Positions 694-8,315 of a stretch of DNA of 8,315 nucleotides are shown here, piece by piece (position 1 is the first letter of the stretch; each line of letters opens with the position of its first letter). The notes beneath the pieces are model-generated. The model was not told the DNA's origin. It worked only from the letters and a program-made list of their open reading frames with translations, and did no database searches. The position numbers and the translations under genes are program-made. The stretch comes from an uncultured Clostridia bacterium (GTDB taxonomy: Bacteria; Bacillota; Clostridia; Oscillospirales; Ruminococcaceae): assembly GCA_947385505.1 (NCBI GenBank), contig CANDLP010000085.1:1-8315 (forward strand). The letters run 5' to 3'.

Positions 694-1656
694 ATGTTAC
701 CCGCTTTAATTGCAGCGGCCGCCGCGGGAGGAGTATTGGCGGCGGGAGCTTCGGCGTGTTTTATCGGCGCGAGGGTATTGTTTAACCGCGTTATTCCGCG
801 TCAAAAAGAGGTCCGCGTGGACGTAAGCGAAATGGCGGACGGAGAAAAATGGGAAGAGTACATAAAAATAATTCACCGGGAAAGGGATAAGCTGCTCCAA
901 AGGAAATCGGAACAGGTCACCGTAAGAACAAGGGACGGCCTTAACCTTTACGGAGATTATTTTCCTTCGGAAAAGCCCTCCGGCCGCACCGCCATATTGG
1001 TTCACGGCTACACAAGCTGCGGTATGAACGACTGCCCGGCTATGGCGGAGTATTTTCTTGAAAGAAACTGGAACGCTCTTATAGTTGACCAGAGAGCCCA
1101 TGGAAAGAGCGAGGGCGATTATGTGGGCTTTGGGATACTTGATAGGTTCGACTGTCTTAAGTGGATAGATTACGTAAGGGGACGTTCGGGAGCCGATGAG
1201 GAAATAGCGCTGTTCGGCGTTTCAATGGGAGCTTCTACCGTGCTTATGGCGAGCGGTCTGGAAAATTTTCCGAAAAATGTTAAGGCGGTAATCGCCGACT
1301 GCGCCTTTACTTCACCTTACGAGGTTTTTAAACACATTCTGAAAAGAGACTATCATCTGCCGCCCCACCCTATAATGGACATTAACGACAGACTTTGCCG
1401 CAAAAAAGCGGGATACGGATTCAGGGACTGTTCAACTCTTGACGCGGTAAAAAAAGGCGTATGCCCAATTCTGTTCATTCACGGGAAAGAGGATAAATTT
1501 GTGCCCGCTTATATGACGGAAGAAAACTACAAAGCCTGTACGGGAGAAAAAGAAATGTTTATCATGGAGAACGCGGGTCACGCGGCTTCCATGTATGAAA
1601 ACACCGAGCTTTATAAAGAAAAGGTTACGGAGTTTTTGGATAAATACTTCGATTGA
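694..1656 (+). CDS. Membrane-anchored alpha/beta-hydrolase
   Basis: This is a serine hydrolase of the alpha/beta-hydrolase fold (S33/'BAAT-like' lipase-esterase group), 320 residues, a normal length. Residues 4-30 are an Ala/Gly-rich hydrophobic segment without a lipoprotein box, probably a signal anchor; which side of the membrane the enzyme faces is not clear. The oxyanion-hole motif HGYTSCG starts at residue 104, the nucleophile elbow GVSMG gives Ser177, and GKEDKF gives the acid Asp267. NAGHA gives the catalytic His296. The catalytic set is complete. It is the first gene of the operon, behind operator 1. Possible roles are release of a fatty acid from lipid, release or breakdown of the acyl product, or editing of mis-loaded carrier protein. 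The sequence does not separate these. Fold is certain, substrate unknown. Confidence 0.9.
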   Translation: MLPALIAAAAAGGVLAAGASACFIGARVLFNRVIPRQKEVRVDVSEMADGEKWEEYIKIIHRERDKLLQRKSEQVTVRTRDGLNLYGDYFPSEKPSGRTAILVHGYTSCGMNDCPAMAEYFLERNWNALIVDQRAHGKSEGDYVGFGILDRFDCLKWIDYVRGRSGADEEIALFGVSMGASTVLMASGLENFPKNVKAVIADCAFTSPYEVFKHILKRDYHLPPHPIMDINDRLCRKKAGYGFRDCSTLDAVKKGVCPILFIHGKEDKFVPAYMTEENYKACTGEKEMFIMENAGHAASMYENTELYKEKVTEFLDKYFD

Positions 1657-1680
1657 GCGGCACCAATGCTCGCATAATTT
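1653..1680 (+). promoter_or_regulatory. Possible weak promoter for the condensation gene
   Basis: TTGAGC (1653-1658, overlapping the hydrolase stop) and TAATTT (1675-1680) are 16 bases apart. The match is poor. The reason to list it is that operator 2 begins a few bases downstream, the same geometry as at the first promoter. A second operator would make little sense here without a promoter to control. Confidence 0.3.
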
Positions 1681-1686
1681 TAAACA

Positions 1687-1709
1687 TTTTTCGACTGTCG
1701 GTCGAAAAA
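1687..1709. promoter_or_regulatory. TetR operator 2
   Basis: The core TTCGACTGTCGGTCGAA (1690-1706) differs from operator 1 by one base, which breaks one pair of the palindrome. Here the symmetry extends outward through runs of five T and five A, giving a 23-base site. It sits in the 73-base gap between the hydrolase and the condensation gene, ahead of the latter's ribosome site. The rest of the operon (condensation, carrier, ligase) could therefore be controlled separately from the hydrolase. Confidence 0.78.
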
Positions 1710-1729
1710 CACAGAAAGGTTGATGTAAA

Positions 1730-3139
1730 ATGAAAGAATTTACAATTAACGGCACGGTCATGAAATGCTATCCCCTGACTGCCGCGCAAAGACTTCATTT
1801 CTATACCATAAAATTTGCCAAACCGCAGGTATTAAACATAGGAACCGGACTTTACATCAAGCAGGACGTTGACTTTGACATACTTAAACAGTCGGTACAG
1901 GAAGCGATCGCCGACTTTGACTCAATGCGCCTTCGTTTTATACAGGACGAGGACGGCGCGGTATATCAATACGTTATCCCCTTTGACGAAAGAGAAATCG
2001 GATTTTTTGATTTTTCGGGCTGGAGCGAGAAAGACGCCCACGAGGAAATGACTAAATGGACGCATAAGCCTTTGGAACGCTTTAACTCGGCTATGAACCG
2101 CGTGGTTATGATAAAATATCCGGGCGGCTACAACGGCATATACCTTAAAGTGGATCATATGACGATGGATTCAAGCTCGATAATAGAGTTTAATAAAAGA
2201 GTATTGGAGCTGTACTGCGCCAAGGCTTACAATTATCCGCAGCCCAAGCCGCTCCAATCTTATATAAAAGCCGTTGAACACGATCTGGAATATGAAAAAA
2301 AGAATAACCCTTCCCATATAAAAGACGAGGAATTCTGGAAATTACAGATAGAGGGCGACGAACCCATGTATACCGATTTTACCGGACCGGGAAGGCTGAT
2401 CACCCAGCGCCGCGAAAGCGGAAATCCCGAACTCAGAAGCGCGGTAATTACTTCGAACACTCTCGACGCCGCCATTTCCGTTTATCATCTGGAAGCGGAG
2501 CCTTCCGCAAGACTGCTGGACTTCTGTGCGGAAAATAAGGTTTCAATGGCGAGCCTTTTGCTTATGGGACTTCGCACCGTGCTTTCAAAATTCAACAACG
2601 ACGAAAAGGACGTTTCGGTAAAAACGAACGTAGCGCGCCGAGGCACTCTTCTTGAAAAGCACAGCGGCGGCACAAGAATACACTTTTTCCCTCTGCGCAC
2701 AATCCTTGAACCTGAACAGACCTTTATTGACGGCATAAGAACCATTCAGGCGGAGCAGAATAAGATATTCCGCCACGCGAACTACGACCCGATAGAGCTT
2801 ACGATGAAACGCGCGAAATACCGCAAATTTACTCCCGGCGCCAGCTATGAGAGTATTTCGCTCACCTATCAGCCGCTTACCCTGCGGGAAAAGAACACCG
2901 AAATGCCCGATATAGACTACAAGACTTTCTGGTATTCCAACGGGGTTGCGGCTCAGCCGCTCTATCTTACCGTAATGCACCGTCCGGAGGACAACGGACT
3001 GAACTTTAACTTTGAGTACAAAAAAGATGTGGTAAGCGACAGCGAGATGGAATTTTTATATTACTACTACTGCCGCGTTCTGTTCAGAGGGATCGAGGAT
3101 AAATCAAGATCTATCGGACAGATACTTGAAATGATATAA
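1730..3139 (+). CDS. Stand-alone condensation-domain acyltransferase
   Basis: This 469-residue protein has the length and layout of a single NRPS condensation domain or a related acyltransferase (PapA, wax-ester or alcohol acyltransferase group). The opening YPLTAAQRLHFYT (residues 14-26) matches the first condensation motif (P-L-T/S-x-x-Q). The active-site motif, HHxxxDG in typical members, reads DHMTMDS at residues 142-148. The second, catalytic His (His143) and the structural Asp (Asp147) are kept, while the first His is Asp and the Gly is Ser. VSVKTNVARRG further on corresponds to the conserved strand before the second half. Beside a carrier protein and an acyl ligase, it would transfer the carrier-bound acyl group to a free amine or alcohol. 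AGAAAGG at 1713-1719 supports the start. Family good, acceptor unknown. Confidence 0.85.
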   Translation: MKEFTINGTVMKCYPLTAAQRLHFYTIKFAKPQVLNIGTGLYIKQDVDFDILKQSVQEAIADFDSMRLRFIQDEDGAVYQYVIPFDEREIGFFDFSGWSEKDAHEEMTKWTHKPLERFNSAMNRVVMIKYPGGYNGIYLKVDHMTMDSSSIIEFNKRVLELYCAKAYNYPQPKPLQSYIKAVEHDLEYEKKNNPSHIKDEEFWKLQIEGDEPMYTDFTGPGRLITQRRESGNPELRSAVITSNTLDAAISVYHLEAEPSARLLDFCAENKVSMASLLLMGLRTVLSKFNNDEKDVSVKTNVARRGTLLEKHSGGTRIHFFPLRTILEPEQTFIDGIRTIQAEQNKIFRHANYDPIELTMKRAKYRKFTPGASYESISLTYQPLTLREKNTEMPDIDYKTFWYSNGVAAQPLYLTVMHRPEDNGLNFNFEYKKDVVSDSEMEFLYYYYCRVLFRGIEDKSRSIGQILEMI

Positions 3140-3187
3140 TAAAATTAAAAAAACAAAAAAACAAATCAGGAAAGGCGGATCAGCAAT

Positions 3188-3421
3188 ATGTTTGAAGAGC
3201 TTAAAGAAATGATGTGCAATTATATAGAGGTCGATCCCGAAACAATAACGCCCGAATCGGAGTTTATAAACGATCTCGGCTTTAATTCCTTTGATTTTAT
3301 GTGCCTTCTCGGCGAGATCGAAGAAAAATACAACATTCATGTTGACGAAGAGGAAATAATGGGGCTTTCCACCGTAAAAGACGCTATTAAATATATAGAG
3401 AAGCTGAGAAAGGAACATTGA
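3188..3421 (+). CDS. Acyl/peptidyl carrier protein
   Basis: This is a 77-residue discrete carrier protein that holds the activated acyl group on a 4'-phosphopantetheine arm. The attachment motif reads DLGFNSFDF at residues 29-37, with Ser34 as the attachment site. It differs from the usual D-S-L at both neighbours (Asn before, Phe after). The short acidic four-helix pattern, with helix 1 at 2-14, helix 2 from Ser34 and the helix-4 stretch STVKDAIKYIEKL, is typical. It lies 48 bases after the condensation gene, behind AGGAAAGGCGG, and 4 bases before the ligase start, so it is co-translated with the ligase. No phosphopantetheinyl transferase is encoded in the window, so the modifying enzyme must come from elsewhere in the genome. 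Confidence 0.9.
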   Translation: MFEELKEMMCNYIEVDPETITPESEFINDLGFNSFDFMCLLGEIEEKYNIHVDEEEIMGLSTVKDAIKYIEKLRKEH

Positions 3422-3425
3422 CAAT

Positions 3426-4964
3426 ATGAAAACACTGTTTGATCTGGTAAAAACGGCGCGGGATAAGTTTGAAAACAACATTTTTATAAAAGAAAAAACG
3501 GCTTCCGGCATAAACGAAATCACCTTCGGCGAATTTTACTCGGGCGCCCTTAAAATAGCCGCCTTTTTAAAGGACAGCTTCGGAAAAAGGGTGCACTCGG
3601 CGGTGATCGGCCCCACAAGCGGATATTATCTTATGAGCCATATAGGCGCTATGTGCGGAGGAAACGTAGGGATCCCGATAGACGCGCTTTTGTCCGTAAA
3701 CGATATATGCGAGCTGCTCACAAGATCGGACGCGGACGTGCTGTTCTATGACAAAAGGTATGAACAGGCGATTCCCGTCATACAAGAGGCCTGTCCCTCG
3801 ATGAAAATGTTTGTGGCGCTTTCGGGAGAAACAGAAAACGGTCTTACCGTAGGAGCGGCCCTTGAAAAATACGAGCCTTTGATTATGTCGGAAGAAGAGC
3901 TTCCCGACGAAAACACATTGGCGGCGATACTGTTTACATCGGGTACCACGGGGAAAGCAAAGGGAGTTATGCTTTCCCACGGAAACTTTATGGACAATGC
4001 CTTTTGCTGTGACAATGAAAGCACCGAAGAGGACGTTTTGCTGACAATGCTGCCTATCCATCACGTATACTGCTTTACCTGCGATATCCTCTTGTCATTG
4101 CGTTACGGCACCGCCGTATGCGTAAACGATTCGCTTATGAAGGTCGCGCAGAATTTAAAGCTTTTCGCCCCCACAATAATACTGATGGTGCCGATGATAG
4201 CGGCAACCATATGCAAGCAGATAAAAAATGCCGCCAAAGCAAATCCCGATATTCCCATACAAGCCATTGCCAACAGCGTTTTCGGAGGCAGACTGAAAAC
4301 AATTTACAGCGGCGGCGCTTATTTAAGCCCTGAGCTTATTTCGGAATATGAAAGCTTCGGCATAACAATAGCGCAAGGCTACGGAATGACCGAATGTTCC
4401 CCCCGTATAACCTCCGGAGACCTGTCCCGCAAGTCAAACGGCGACGTGGGAAAAATAGTGCGGGGCTGTGAGGTAAGGATAGTTGACGGCGAGATAACGG
4501 TAAAAAGCCCTTCGGTAATGCAGGGGTATTACAAGGACGAGAAGGAAACCGAAGAAACCATTAAGGACGGCTGGCTGTACACGGGCGACTTAGGATATAC
4601 CGACGAATACGGCCGTCTTTACATAACGGGAAGAAAGAAAAACCTTATAATTCTCTCCAACGGCGAAAATGTTTCCCCCGAAGAGCTGGAAAACAAGGCG
4701 GAAGCCGCTCAGATCGCTCAGGAACTGCTTGTATATCCTGAAGACGAGATATTGACTTTAGAGCTGTTTTTGGGCGGAGAGCTTTACAAGGACAAAACAG
4801 CTGAAGAAGCGGCGGCGGAGATAAAGAAAAAAGTTGCCGAAATAAATAAGACCTTGCCTTCCTCAAAAAATATCCGCAGGATCAGGATAAGAAAAGAGGA
4901 GTTTGAGAAAACCACCTCAAGAAAAATAAAGCGAAATCAAAGCAAACAAGGGGACATTATATAA
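3426..4964 (+). CDS. Acyl-adenylating ligase (fatty acid-CoA/ACP ligase family)
   Basis: This is a class I adenylate-forming enzyme, 512 residues. It activates a carboxylic acid with ATP to the acyl-AMP and here presumably loads it on the adjacent carrier protein. All core motifs are present. The phosphate loop TSGTTGKAKG is at 171-180, YGMTE at 319-323 and TGD at 386-388. GRKKNLIILSNGENVSPEELE starts at 402, and the C-terminal TTSRKIKR holds the catalytic Lys500. The overall look (LPIHHVYCF, GWLYTGDLGY) is of fatty- or aryl-acid ligases rather than amino-acid adenylation domains. The start ATG lies 4 bases after the carrier stop. The C-terminal domain is somewhat compact, but no key residue is missing. 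The gene ends the operon; repeat copy 1 begins 3 bases after its stop. Chain length of the acid cannot be told from sequence by eye. Confidence 0.92.
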   Translation: MKTLFDLVKTARDKFENNIFIKEKTASGINEITFGEFYSGALKIAAFLKDSFGKRVHSAVIGPTSGYYLMSHIGAMCGGNVGIPIDALLSVNDICELLTRSDADVLFYDKRYEQAIPVIQEACPSMKMFVALSGETENGLTVGAALEKYEPLIMSEEELPDENTLAAILFTSGTTGKAKGVMLSHGNFMDNAFCCDNESTEEDVLLTMLPIHHVYCFTCDILLSLRYGTAVCVNDSLMKVAQNLKLFAPTIILMVPMIAATICKQIKNAAKANPDIPIQAIANSVFGGRLKTIYSGGAYLSPELISEYESFGITIAQGYGMTECSPRITSGDLSRKSNGDVGKIVRGCEVRIVDGEITVKSPSVMQGYYKDEKETEETIKDGWLYTGDLGYTDEYGRLYITGRKKNLIILSNGENVSPEELENKAEAAQIAQELLVYPEDEILTLELFLGGELYKDKTAEEAAAEIKKKVAEINKTLPSSKNIRRIRIRKEEFEKTTSRKIKRNQSKQGDII

Positions 4965-4966
4965 AT

Positions 4967-5087
4967 TATAGCAATCCAAGAAAAGAATAAATAGCGGCGA
5001 AGCCGCACCTGTTTTTTTCGCTTCCTTTTTGGACACCAAAAAGGAAGTGGGATCCGGGGCAAAGCCCCGAATGCTCAACGTAATAAT
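4967..5087 (+). repeat. Three-hairpin interspersed repeat, copy 1
   Basis: This 121-bp element begins TATAGCAATCC, 3 bases after the ligase stop. It contains three hairpins: GCGGC-GAA-GCCGC (4994-5006), a perfect 12-bp stem CTTCCTTTTTGG/CCAAAAAGGAAG (5021-5047), and CGGGGC-AAA-GCCCCG (5055-5069). It ends near CGTAATAA. Two further copies occur in inverted orientation at 6612-6732 and 7553-7674. Seven T residues follow the first hairpin after a short gap, so it may end transcription of the biosynthetic operon. It encodes no protein. It is probably a short mobile or REP-like element. Confidence 0.85.
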
Positions 5088-5295: not shown

Positions 5296-5805
5296 TCAGA
5301 CCGTTACCGAAAACTTAATTTCGGTATTTGCGGGAACGGTTTTACCTGTTTTCGTATAAGTTACGGGAGAATCAGAAGCGCCCTTAATTTGCTCGGCGTC
5401 GGTATGTTCGGCGCTAAGTTCAATTTTAGGATCGGCGCCGTCCGAATCGGTTTCCTCCCCGATTTCGGAAGAATTTTCGGGAACAGATGTGGAAACTGGA
5501 GGCTTGCTTGCTTCTTCCAGTCTTTCTTCGGTTTCCGTGTGGTTTTCCTTGATGCGCTCCGCAAGTTCTTCCCGTTCGAGACGTTCCTTTTCCTTGGCTT
5601 CAACCGCCTCCTGCTTCAAGGCTTCGTCTGCCTTTGCCTTATATTCCCATGCGTTCTCGTTAAAGTCTTCCACATATCCCATAGCCCTTTTCATAGTGGA
5701 CTCATCGCCTCTTGCGCGGGCTTCCTTATACACCTTCAAGGGGGTTCGTATCACGTTCATAGTGACGTTTGCCCCGATAAGATTTCCTGCGGTTTTAGCT
5801 ATCAT
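5296..5805 (-). CDS. Hypothetical charged protein, 169 residues
   Basis: I do not recognise a family. The first 25 residues are mildly hydrophobic (MIAKTAGNLI, GANVTMNVI) but lack the Lys-start and long core of a Sec signal. Residues 50-100 are very rich in Glu, Lys and Ala and should form a long helix or coiled coil. Residues 100-145 are acidic and disordered-looking, and the tail (TYTKTGKTVP) is beta-like. There is no cysteine. The start ATG (5803-5805) follows AAAGAAAGGCAG at good spacing. The gene lies 39 bases after the stop of the 235-residue gene upstream, so the two are co-transcribed. The opposite strand has an open frame of similar length, but it is Phe/Cys-rich and lacks this context. 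Confidence 0.72.
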   Translation of the reverse strand: MIAKTAGNLIGANVTMNVIRTPLKVYKEARARGDESTMKRAMGYVEDFNENAWEYKAKADEALKQEAVEAKEKERLEREELAERIKENHTETEERLEEASKPPVSTSVPENSSEIGEETDSDGADPKIELSAEHTDAEQIKGASDSPVTYTKTGKTVPANTEIKFSVTV

Positions 5806-5844
5806 ATTACATCTGCCTTTCTTTCATATATTGGGAAACTATAA

Positions 5845-6552
5845 CTACATCAACAAAGTGGTATAAAACGACATATCATTTTCGTTTTCCTCTTTTTTAG
5901 CTTCGCTGCCGTTATTTTCAGCCTGTATCTGCATCGATCTCTGCTGCGCCTGCTGTATAAGCGCTTCCACCTTGGCTATTTCATCATCGTCGCACATATT
6001 CATTTCGCGTCCCTTTTTAACGTCGGACATATCCTTGTTGAGCATACTGAGAACCATCTGAATCTGAGCGGGATTTTTCGCGGCGGCTATCTGCCTTAAG
6101 CGCTTGCCTTCGTTAACCGCTACTTTGCCGCCATAGGTTTCGGAAGTTATTTCGCCGTTTTCGTCGATCTTTATCTGCATACCCTGATAACCCTCAAGGT
6201 TCTCCTCGTTGTCCTCCGCCATTTTATCCGCCGCTTCGAGATTTTCAAACAGCTTTTCAAGTTCATTCGGGTCTTTCAGACATTTATTAAGATAACTGCC
6301 TGATATCTGAGTCATTCCCTTTGCCACGGTCTTGTAATTGCGCTTAAGATAAGTCATAAGCTCGTCTTTATTGTTAAATTTCAGCTCTCCCGTTTTGTTC
6401 TCTGCTTCTGAAAGCCCGTTTGTTTCTTTTGGGGGAAGTTTTGAAGGCGCTTTGTCGGGGTTCTCTTCATCGGTTTTTTCGGTTTTTTCCGACTGTGTTT
6501 TCTTAAAATATTTATATGGATCATAATTTATTCCCAAACCGTTTATTGCCAT
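5845..6552 (-). CDS. Hypothetical protein with M-x-I-x-G-x-G start, 235 residues
   Basis: I cannot name a family with confidence. The protein begins MAINGLGINYDPYKYFKK. A disordered Lys/Glu/Pro linker follows (about 18-58), then a well-structured centre (about 60-205). Within the centre, GMQIKIDENGEITSETYGGK (124-143) and the helix-rich stretch PAQIQMVLSMLNKDMSDVKK (161-180) stand out. The protein ends in a Glu-rich segment and a hydrophobic SFYTTLLM. It has two cysteines and no signal peptide. A strong ribosome site GGGAGGTG five bases before the ATG fixes the start. It follows the FlxA-like gene with repeat copy 2 in between and precedes the 169-residue gene. The defined core between disordered ends suggests a structural or exported accessory protein; this is inference. 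Confidence 0.82.
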   Translation of the reverse strand: MAINGLGINYDPYKYFKKTQSEKTEKTDEENPDKAPSKLPPKETNGLSEAENKTGELKFNNKDELMTYLKRNYKTVAKGMTQISGSYLNKCLKDPNELEKLFENLEAADKMAEDNEENLEGYQGMQIKIDENGEITSETYGGKVAVNEGKRLRQIAAAKNPAQIQMVLSMLNKDMSDVKKGREMNMCDDDEIAKVEALIQQAQQRSMQIQAENNGSEAKKEENENDMSFYTTLLM

Positions 6553-6583
6553 ATAAACACCTCCCGGCTATTGAATTTACGCA

Positions 6584-6589
6584 ATTATA
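6584..6589 (-). promoter_or_regulatory. Possible -10 box for the 235-residue gene
   Basis: The minus strand carries a perfect TATAAT about 30 bases before the ATG. No good -35 box lies at 16-18 bases; the sequence there is A-rich. With repeat copy 2 possibly ending upstream transcription, a separate start here would be useful, but the call is weak. Confidence 0.3.
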
Positions 6590-6611
6590 CTTATAATAAT
6601 GCTTTTTTATG

Positions 6612-6732
6612 TTATTACGCTGCGTATTCGGGGCTTTGCCCCGGACCCAACTTCCTTTTTGGCGTCCAAAAAGGAAGCGAAAAAGACAGTTGCGGCTTCG
6701 CCGCTTATTTATTCTTTTCTTGGATTGCTATA
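6612..6732 (-). repeat. Three-hairpin interspersed repeat, copy 2
   Basis: This is the same 121-bp element as at 4967-5087, inverted. Its hairpins are CGGGGC-TTT-GCCCCG (6629-6643), the 12-bp CTTCCTTTTTGG stem (6651-6677) and GCGGC-TTC-GCCGC (6692-6704), ending TTGGATTGCTATA. On the minus strand it starts 3 bases after the stop of the FlxA-like gene, just as copy 1 starts 3 bases after the ligase stop. The 8-base word TATTACGC occurs at its far end (6613-6620) and just outside its near end (6734-6741). Confidence 0.85.
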
Positions 6733-6735
6733 GTA

Positions 6736-7473
6736 TTACGCCTTGTCCTCATACTCTCTTTCCGCGTTTTCGCCGTTTTCCTCTACCCTGTTTCCGTCTT
6801 TATCGTACATTCCGTCGGTTCTGATATCCTTTTCATCATCGTTATTTTCTTTTTCCTTGATATCTTCGCTCTTTTCGTCGATCTCGGCGGCGTTTTTAAG
6901 CTCTCCGTCCGCTTCGTTCAAAACGCTTGCGGCAGCGGAAGCGGAATTTTGTACACCCTTTTTCACTTTGTCCAGCTCAGCTTGTTTGGCGGAAGTATCG
7001 GCGCCTCTTTTGGCGTCGGTTGCGATCTCCGCTTCCAGCTCATTTGCCCTTCCGGAAAGCCTTACTCTTAAGCCGTCCAGCGCGTCGGCGGTTTCAAGGG
7101 CGTTGGAAGCCGCAATGACCGCCCCCGCCGCTGCCTTTGAAAAACCGAAGCCGTCGGATTTTCTTGCGGTCTCATTAGCCGCTTCTTTCTCCGCTGTTTT
7201 TTTCGCAGGCTCTTTTGCGGCTTGTTTTTCCTTCCGAAGTTCCGCCTGTCTTTGTCTTATCTGAGCGTTAAGATCGGCGATCTGCTGCTGAAGCTGCTGC
7301 TTTTTTTCGGTCTTGGCTTTGGGATCCATGTCCTTGTTTTCGGCAAGCTGCTGAAGCTGTTTTCTAAGTTCCTCAATCTGATTCTGTGCATTCTTGATAA
7401 TGCTGTCCTCGCTCTGCTGCTTGGTTACTCCGACGTTATTATTGGCTTGTGAGCCGATTCCAGTAATCTGCAT
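6736..7473 (-). CDS. FlxA-like coiled-coil protein, 245 residues
   Basis: The N-terminal part (about residues 20-85) has the FlxA-like pattern: an amphipathic helix NAQNQIEELRKQLQQLAENK, a short break around DMDPKAKTEKK, then LQQQIADLNAQIRQRQAELR. In Enterobacteria FlxA belongs to the flagellar regulon, but the role of such proteins in Clostridia is unknown to me. The first residues are MQITGIG, matching the pattern in the downstream 235-residue protein. Residues 80-105 are Lys/Ala-rich, 110-200 form Ala-rich helices (AAAGAVIAASNALETADALD) and the C-terminal 50 residues are strongly acidic. There is no cysteine and no Sec signal. AAAGGAAG nine bases before the ATG supports the start. Repeat copy 2 follows the stop directly. 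Coiled coil certain, family probable. Confidence 0.82.
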   Translation of the reverse strand: MQITGIGSQANNNVGVTKQQSEDSIIKNAQNQIEELRKQLQQLAENKDMDPKAKTEKKQQLQQQIADLNAQIRQRQAELRKEKQAAKEPAKKTAEKEAANETARKSDGFGFSKAAAGAVIAASNALETADALDGLRVRLSGRANELEAEIATDAKRGADTSAKQAELDKVKKGVQNSASAAASVLNEADGELKNAAEIDEKSEDIKEKENNDDEKDIRTDGMYDKDGNRVEENGENAEREYEDKA

Positions 7474-7552: not shown

Positions 7553-7674
7553 TTATTATGGCGGTGTATTCGGGGCTTCGCCCCGGACCCTACTTCCTTT
7601 TTGGATCCCAAAAAGGAAGCGAAAAAAGAATCGCGCGGCTTCGCCGCTTTTCTCTTTTTTATCGGATTGCTATA
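7553..7674 (-). repeat. Three-hairpin interspersed repeat, copy 3
   Basis: This is the same element as copies 1 and 2, 122 bp, in the orientation of copy 2. Hairpins are CGGGGC-TTC-GCCCCG (7571-7585), the 12-bp CTTCCTTTTTGG stem with loop ATC (7593-7619) and GCGGC-TTC-GCCGC (7635-7647), ending CGGATTGCTATA. Loop bases and linkers differ from copies 1 and 2 while the stems are kept, so the secondary structure appears to be under selection. It lies upstream of the FlxA-like gene. Confidence 0.85.
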
Positions 7675-7929: not shown

Positions 7930-8315
7930 TTACATATGGAGCATTACCGTAAGGAAAAACACGCCTTTACCGCCGATCTCCTCAGTTGAAACGTCAATAT
8001 CGCCCATATATTTCTTGGCGGTTCTTTCTATGTTGGACAAACCGAAGCCGTGAGTCGCGCCTTCTTTTGAAGTAAGAGGAAGGCCGCTATTTTCACAGAG
8101 TTTGATTGCTCCCGAAAAACTGTTTTCTATTTCTATAAAAAACAGGCTGCCTTTAACATAAGACCGAAGAAAAACATAAGGCTCCTTAACCCCCTTAAAC
8201 TCTTTTAACATCTTTACTTTTTCGCAGGCTTCAATAGCGTTTTCCAGCGAGTTGCTGAGAATCACCCCCACGTCGTAGGAATCGAGACTATCGGTTTCGG
8301 GAAAGGTAAAGTCCG
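7930..8315 (-). CDS. GHKL-domain sensor histidine kinase, C-terminal part
   Basis: This is the ATP-binding domain of a sensor kinase of the AgrC/ComD (GHKL, HATPase_c_5) type. The frame stays open to the right edge, so the gene is incomplete at its 5' end, with its sensor and membrane part outside. The visible residues start DFTFPETDSLDSYDVGVI. The N box is LSNSLENAIEAC and the glycine box is THGFGLSNIERTAKKY. The C-terminus is GGKGVFFLTVMLHM, the standard last strand of the fold. The GTG at 8271 is internal and not a start, because conserved sequence lies before it. No response regulator follows within the window; it would be expected to the right. Such kinases usually sense peptides and signal through a LytTR regulator; the link to the neighbouring genes is unknown. 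Confidence 0.9.
   Translation of the reverse strand, partial: DFTFPETDSLDSYDVGVILSNSLENAIEACEKVKMLKEFKGVKEPYVFLRSYVKGSLFFIEIENSFSGAIKLCENSGLPLTSKEGATHGFGLSNIERTAKKYMGDIDVSTEEIGGKGVFFLTVMLHM

Follow-up and report, generated by a model that had tools for sequence, protein, structure and literature searches.

The DNA analysed here (the window: 8,315 nucleotides, bases 1–8315 of contig CANDLP010000085.1, C85 in our numbering, of assembly GCA_947385505.1, an uncultured Clostridia bacterium of the Ruminococcaceae) carries a predicted fatty acid amide (FAA) cluster of a hydrolase-bearing, TetR-linked branch, which is a variant of the known FAA clusters. The genome bin amounts to 2.57 Mb on 415 contigs and is 87.5% complete. 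We assign a probability of about 0.72 to the reading that this is an FAA set of the CTA/Oaa type from a hydrolase-bearing branch, in which the hydrolase takes part in the pathway, on whichever substrate. The chemistry proposed for the set rests on kinship, from which it appears very probable that fatty acid amides are made.

Four intact, full-length open frames lie on the + strand: an alpha/beta hydrolase (694–1656; Abhydrolase_1, E = 5.1e-14; Hydrolase_4, E = 5.1e-12) with an N-terminal hydrophobic helix, a predicted membrane anchor; a stand-alone FAA-type condensation enzyme (C) of 469 amino acids (1730–3139; Condensation, E = 2.9e-38, 132 bits, cut-off 30.6); an acyl carrier protein (ACP) of 77 amino acids (3188–3421; PP-binding, E = 1.4e-12; Ser34 for phosphopantetheine); and an acyl ligase of the long-chain acyl-CoA ligase superfamily, 512 amino acids in length (3426–4964; AMP-binding, E = 1.9e-57; AMP-binding_C_3, E = 1.9e-06). 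The full-length frames and Pfam matches thus confirm the four genes and the locations given for them in the original prediction. The end of the C gene is separated from the start of the carrier gene by 48 bases and carrier from ligase by 4 bases, and a terminator-like hairpin lies 3' of the ligase gene. A Pfam scan of the window found neither an amino-acid adenylation domain nor a multidomain nonribosomal peptide synthetase (NRPS), as had been claimed, and the 87.5% complete genome contains one Condensation match in total; a multidomain NRPS or lipopeptide pathway was rejected on these two grounds. The carrier serine is conserved in 83/83 aligned carriers, and the single genomic match to PF01648 (phosphopantetheinyl-transferase) makes arming of the ACP appear possible by gene content. 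The ligase has the core motifs and is predicted to act on a fatty acid, activating it and transferring it to the carrier; its best NCBIfam model was PRK06187 (long-chain-fatty-acid--CoA ligase) with 224 bits for a cut-off of 476, and it scored below every curated cut-off shown.

When the C protein was compared with solved structures, residues 12–469 matched 12kh (E = 1.4e-111, 377 bits), with the runner-up at 25 bits. PDB 12KH is OaaC of Coprococcus eutactus, described in PMC13142362 as a crystallised stand-alone FAA condensation enzyme that moves an acyl chain from ACP to a free amine in vitro; C and OaaC are identical in 181 of 457 aligned residues (40%). The motif DHMTMDS at residues 142–148 of C fits the (D/H)HxxxDS type, with a variable last residue, described for FAA condensation enzymes (PMC13142362). 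The original prediction had pointed to gut Clostridia FAA clusters as possible kin of this locus, a view that is supported because OaaC is the sole strong solved relative, the DHxxxDS motif is shared and the C-T-A gene order is published; the enzymes are stand-alone proteins and there is no acceptor carrier.

Published clusters differ from the window set in gene content. In the Oaa cluster (OaaA, OaaACP and OaaC; PMC13142362), ligase, carrier and C are likewise separate proteins; three proteins are described and a hydrolase is unmentioned in the main text of that paper, whereas the window set adds one. The OaaC homodimer is opened by holo-ACP, as reported there for OaaC. The CTA operon of Blautia and other Lachnospiraceae (PMC13060934) has the same C-T-A gene order as the window and is tied to acyl amine synthesis and relief of fatty acid toxicity in living Blautia. 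That paper speaks of a three-gene operon and, with identity cut off at 70%, reports it from Lachnospiraceae isolates only; the word hydrolase is absent there and TetR is unmentioned in its relevant passages, whereas the window set has both. Chang et al. 2021 (Nat Microbiol 6:792) is, according to the papers citing it, the founding description of gut Clostridia FAA clusters, and hydrolase-bearing clusters may already be included there. Titles and opening lines of abstracts in the literature gave no hydrolase in FAA clusters and no FAA report for the rumen or Ruminococcaceae, which is no proof of absence.

For comparison among relatives, loci were collected by a pattern scan of genome contigs, using close-relative patterns (50 loci), and by sampling genomes evenly, 391 from the class and 297 from the family; both draws contain the window's own genome, and the 297-genome draw comes without a locus for some weak matches. 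The 127 loci with a C match were reduced to 92 by dropping 34 with C identical to or contained in another and one (L051) with a short C; five of the 92 (L003, L026, L128, L178 and L179) lie too near a contig end for hydrolase counting. Among loci with C at least 46.5% identical to that of the window, a limit chosen after the data were seen, the hydrolase adjoins C on the same strand in 69/69 readable loci (71 in all, two cut by contig ends), and below this limit a hydrolase is adjacent in 0/18 readable loci (21, three cut). Pairwise distances among hydrolases follow those among C proteins with a correlation of 0.91 over 59 loci, the value for the ligase being 0.92. Within one C branch the hydrolase is constant; a chance neighbour is ruled out by the 69/69 adjacency and the distance correlation, and the hydrolase, which had been considered an unusual extra part, is not unusual in this branch. 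The search for conserved neighbourhoods that the original prediction had proposed found the order hydrolase-C-ACP-ligase in many genomes; because this order recurs, the four-gene arrangement is more than chance.

The catalytic motif also varies between the two kinds of loci. Among the 69 hydrolase-linked C proteins, 61 had DHxxxDS, 4 NHxxxDS, 3 DHxxxDA and 1 QHxxxDS; among the 18 hydrolase-less ones, 8 had DHxxxDS, 5 HHxxxDS, 3 HHxxxDA, 1 NHxxxDS and 1 YHxxxDA. C domains of other, mostly multidomain, proteins in the class had HHxxxDA or HHxxxDG in 10/10 cases. In a tree of 80 rows, built with no starter C domains, the 70 stand-alone C rows including OaaC were separated from the 10 NRPS rows with support of 100/100, and OaaC clustered with the hydrolase-less rows. 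At fifteen positions, a residue conserved in 90% or more of the 69 hydrolase-linked C proteins is rare in the 14 hydrolase-less ones that have a ligase. One of these, Met144 (67/69, with Leu in 2), lies within the catalytic motif; its counterpart is Arg140 in OaaC, and Arg is found in 6 of the 14. Since Met replaces the Arg of OaaC beside the catalytic His, an amine different from that of OaaC is hinted at. As a lead, an Arg at this position could hold the carboxylate of aminovalerate or gamma-aminobutyric acid, and its loss would suit an uncharged amine.

The 80-row tree requires 4 changes of the hydrolase label when the contig-edge loci L003 and L026 are counted as lacking it, and a single origin of the hydrolase-bearing branch is not shown. 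The wider hydrolase family has matches in 132/391 genomes of the class and, because it is so common, the copies in the operon resemble a single line recruited from it. In the class draw, 11 of the 12 top hydrolase matches (the window among them) adjoin a C gene; the exception, L121 (G306), has a hydrolase of 43% identity, a level similar to that of the distant operon copies, and matches to C, carrier and ligase are all missing from the surrounding 14 kb. L167, L168 and L179 have a stand-alone C with no carrier or ligase match nearby. In G567 the two architectures occur together in one genome, on separate contigs, which suggests that they do different jobs. Of the 297 family genomes, 37 had a C match with E no higher than 1e-20, a count that takes in the window and a few C domains of distant type. 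Sample sources named for contigs with loci include deer, goat and rabbit (Lapin), and the near relatives of G202, a distant hydrolase-bearing copy, are named Acetatifactor and Roseburia.

Several gene families recur at the flanks of these loci. An SCP2-type lipid-carrier gene lies directly 3' of the ligase gene, on the same strand, in L013, L017, L025, L027, L031, L034 and L036, with the same placement in L038, L040, L042, L043, L045 and L048; PF02036 was identified in the one scanned (L034), and the match in L124 lies before the hydrolase. In L019, L022, L040, L051, L122 and L127 a phosphopantetheinyl-transferase-like gene of the same orientation adjoins the operon or lies within it, and in L122 it sits between carrier and ligase. 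Three proteins of the recurrent flanking families were scanned (SCP2, hybrid histidine kinase and phosphopantetheinyl transferase), and the others were viewed by their first residues only, so that a gene for making the amine could still be among them.

Ser177, Asp267 and His296 of the hydrolase do not vary among 19 aligned proteins, and we take them to be the catalytic triad from what is known of the alpha/beta hydrolase fold. This Ser-Asp-His arrangement is backed by a structure model and fold matches and is common to many other hydrolases. The protein is at most 22% identical to the esterase Pf2001 and to monoacylglycerol lipases, from which the N-terminal hydrophobic helix also sets it apart. 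A lipoprotein was ruled out, Cys22 not being conserved in the alignment.

Divergent to the operon is a TetR-family regulator gene (61–492, − strand; TetR_N, E = 6.2e-12) with an in-frame stop after residue 143; the contig starts within the gene. Intact TetR proteins in 22 relatives have 187–218 amino acids, and past the stop, towards base 1, the window frame still encodes homologous residues, as seen from alignment and translation. A promoter-like site (614–642, + strand; TTGACC and TAATAT separated by 17 bases), a consensus match alone (9/12), precedes the hydrolase gene; a predicted palindromic operator, TTCGACCGTCGGTCGAA (655–671), lies 12 bases past the −10 hexamer and 22 ahead of the hydrolase start, and a second predicted operator, TTCGACTGTCGGTCGAA (1690–1706), precedes the C gene. 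L002, the nearest relative (C 95% identical), keeps both operators, the second likewise between hydrolase and C, with a gene that by eye resembles a chemotaxis receptor in the place of TetR. The two operator cores are the sole exact matches to CGACNGTCGGTCG in the genome. Across loci, CGACN5GTCG was found before the hydrolase gene in 29/66 (0.12 expected), including 20 of the 27 that have a divergent TetR; the same loci contain 9 further sites elsewhere in 749,208 bases, and the motif occurs upstream of C in 0/19 hydrolase-less loci. A wide TetR regulon was rejected, both exact cores lying in the window and the 10 matches at one mismatch, against 9 for a reversed control, being no evidence of one. 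Because matching palindromes precede both the hydrolase and C genes, there may be two co-regulated transcription units here in place of the one operon claimed. FadR of Bacillus, also of the TetR family, gave the best NCBIfam model for the window TetR, yet far under the cut-off (residues 3–141, 48.8 bits vs. 200, on the shortened protein). With an intact relative's TetR, Foldseek returned FadR structures among the matches, below a different best match, 3b81. The signal sensed by TetR would, we infer, be a fatty acid or its thioester.

Taken as a pathway, the anchored hydrolase would work at the inner membrane face on lipid esters, monoacylglycerol-like or other, that had passed into the membrane, and would release free fatty acid; this substrate assignment is tentative, at somewhat less than even odds. 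The ligase, by kinship, would form an acyl-AMP and load the acyl chain on the phosphopantetheine arm at Ser34 of the ACP. By analogy with OaaC, C would then take the acyl chain from ACP, with His143 aiding attack by a free amine, and the amide would leave with no second carrier involved. TetR would repress both starts through the matching operators and release them as fatty acid or its thioester accumulates; with its repressor truncated, the set may be expressed all the time in this genome. The likely benefit to the cell would be conversion of toxic free fatty acids to harmless amides, as reported for Blautia wexlerae, and action of the amides on host receptors would be a side effect. A bolder version, which we consider doubtful, is that the set would be a self-contained ester-to-amide converter, turning dietary or host acylglycerols (including endocannabinoid-type esters) into amide receptor ligands in whole groups of gut Clostridia, with an amine differing from that of OaaC and read out by Met for Arg beside the catalytic His.

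Two alternatives keep amide synthesis and change the role of the hydrolase. It could be a type-II-like thioesterase clearing wrong or stalled acyl groups from ACP (or acyl-CoA), which is possible, though unlikely: editing of a soluble carrier needs no N-terminal membrane helix, and the hydrolase-less branch (0/18), with the same carrier and ligase, manages without it. Cleavage of the amide product, or of a related N-acyl amine, making the pathway reversible, appears less probable still, given that synthesis and breakdown sharing one control would amount to a futile cycle; the hydrolase gene also heads the unit, less than 60 bases before C in most relatives.

The other two alternatives concern the product and the state of the genes. 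Enzymes of the C fold are able to form esters, and the acceptor site is altered (Met144 for Arg140 of OaaC, and 14 further branch-specific positions), as would be expected if C passed the acyl chain to an alcohol or lipid head group to give a wax ester or O-acyl lipid; however, the sole strong solved relative and the published clusters of this gene order make amides, and transfer to an acceptor other than an amine seems improbable. Equally slim is the chance that in this genome the genes are in decay or not expressed. Such decay would agree with the TetR in-frame stop, the replacement of TetR in L002 by the apparent chemotaxis-receptor gene and the lack of a C match in the other listed genomes of the genus (see below); against this, the four enzyme genes are intact with active-site residues kept, the proteins of L002 are still 88–95% identical, and loss of a repressor would raise, not stop, expression.

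The preferred reading, an FAA set with the hydrolase as a working part, has to be set against several observations that weaken it. The amide product of the window set, with its acid and its amine, is a prediction. A thioesterase, feruloyl esterases and peptidases are likewise found among the nearest folds of the hydrolase, and the lipid-ester step is, for that reason, a choice; a lipase making free acid would, moreover, fit a purely protective role poorly. As for the anchor, the charge after the helix is greater than that before it in 46/67 hydrolases, equal in 12 and smaller in 9, such that orientation is not clear-cut, and the helix is below the hydrophobicity limit used in 14/67. The regulator is truncated in this genome, and the strict operator is missing in 37/66 loci, 7 of them with a divergent TetR. 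The division at 46.5% was, as stated, made with hindsight; just under it, L172 (46.3%) has a carrier and neither hydrolase nor ligase nearby, and in a FastTree tree built from OaaC and the 92 non-identical C proteins, no one branch splits hydrolase-bearing from hydrolase-less loci. Finally, among the other genomes of the same genus listed in the family draw, 0/4 had a C match.

Few gut pathways have, as FAA clusters do, enzymes that have been reconstituted, products that are known and targets among human receptors. The list of candidate amides would widen with a large branch that has a constant hydrolase, its own repressor site and an altered active-site neighbour; the repressor site is a first handle on when such a pathway switches on, and the gene set is small and suited to reconstitution.

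In the remainder of the window, three genes occupy 5296–7473 on the − strand; one is FlxA-like (PF14282), Pfam gave no match for the other two, and the same three occur in the same order in L002 with 77–80% identity. The end of a GHKL-type sensor kinase gene (7930–8313, − strand) is cut by the contig end. A near-perfect palindrome, CTTCCTTTTTGGNNNCCAAAAAGGAAG, lies within longer repeats at 5021–5047, 6651–6677 and 7593–7619; with at most one mismatch it was found at 26 places in the genome, compared to 0 for the reversed control pattern, which marks it as a dispersed repeat family, possibly a small mobile element.

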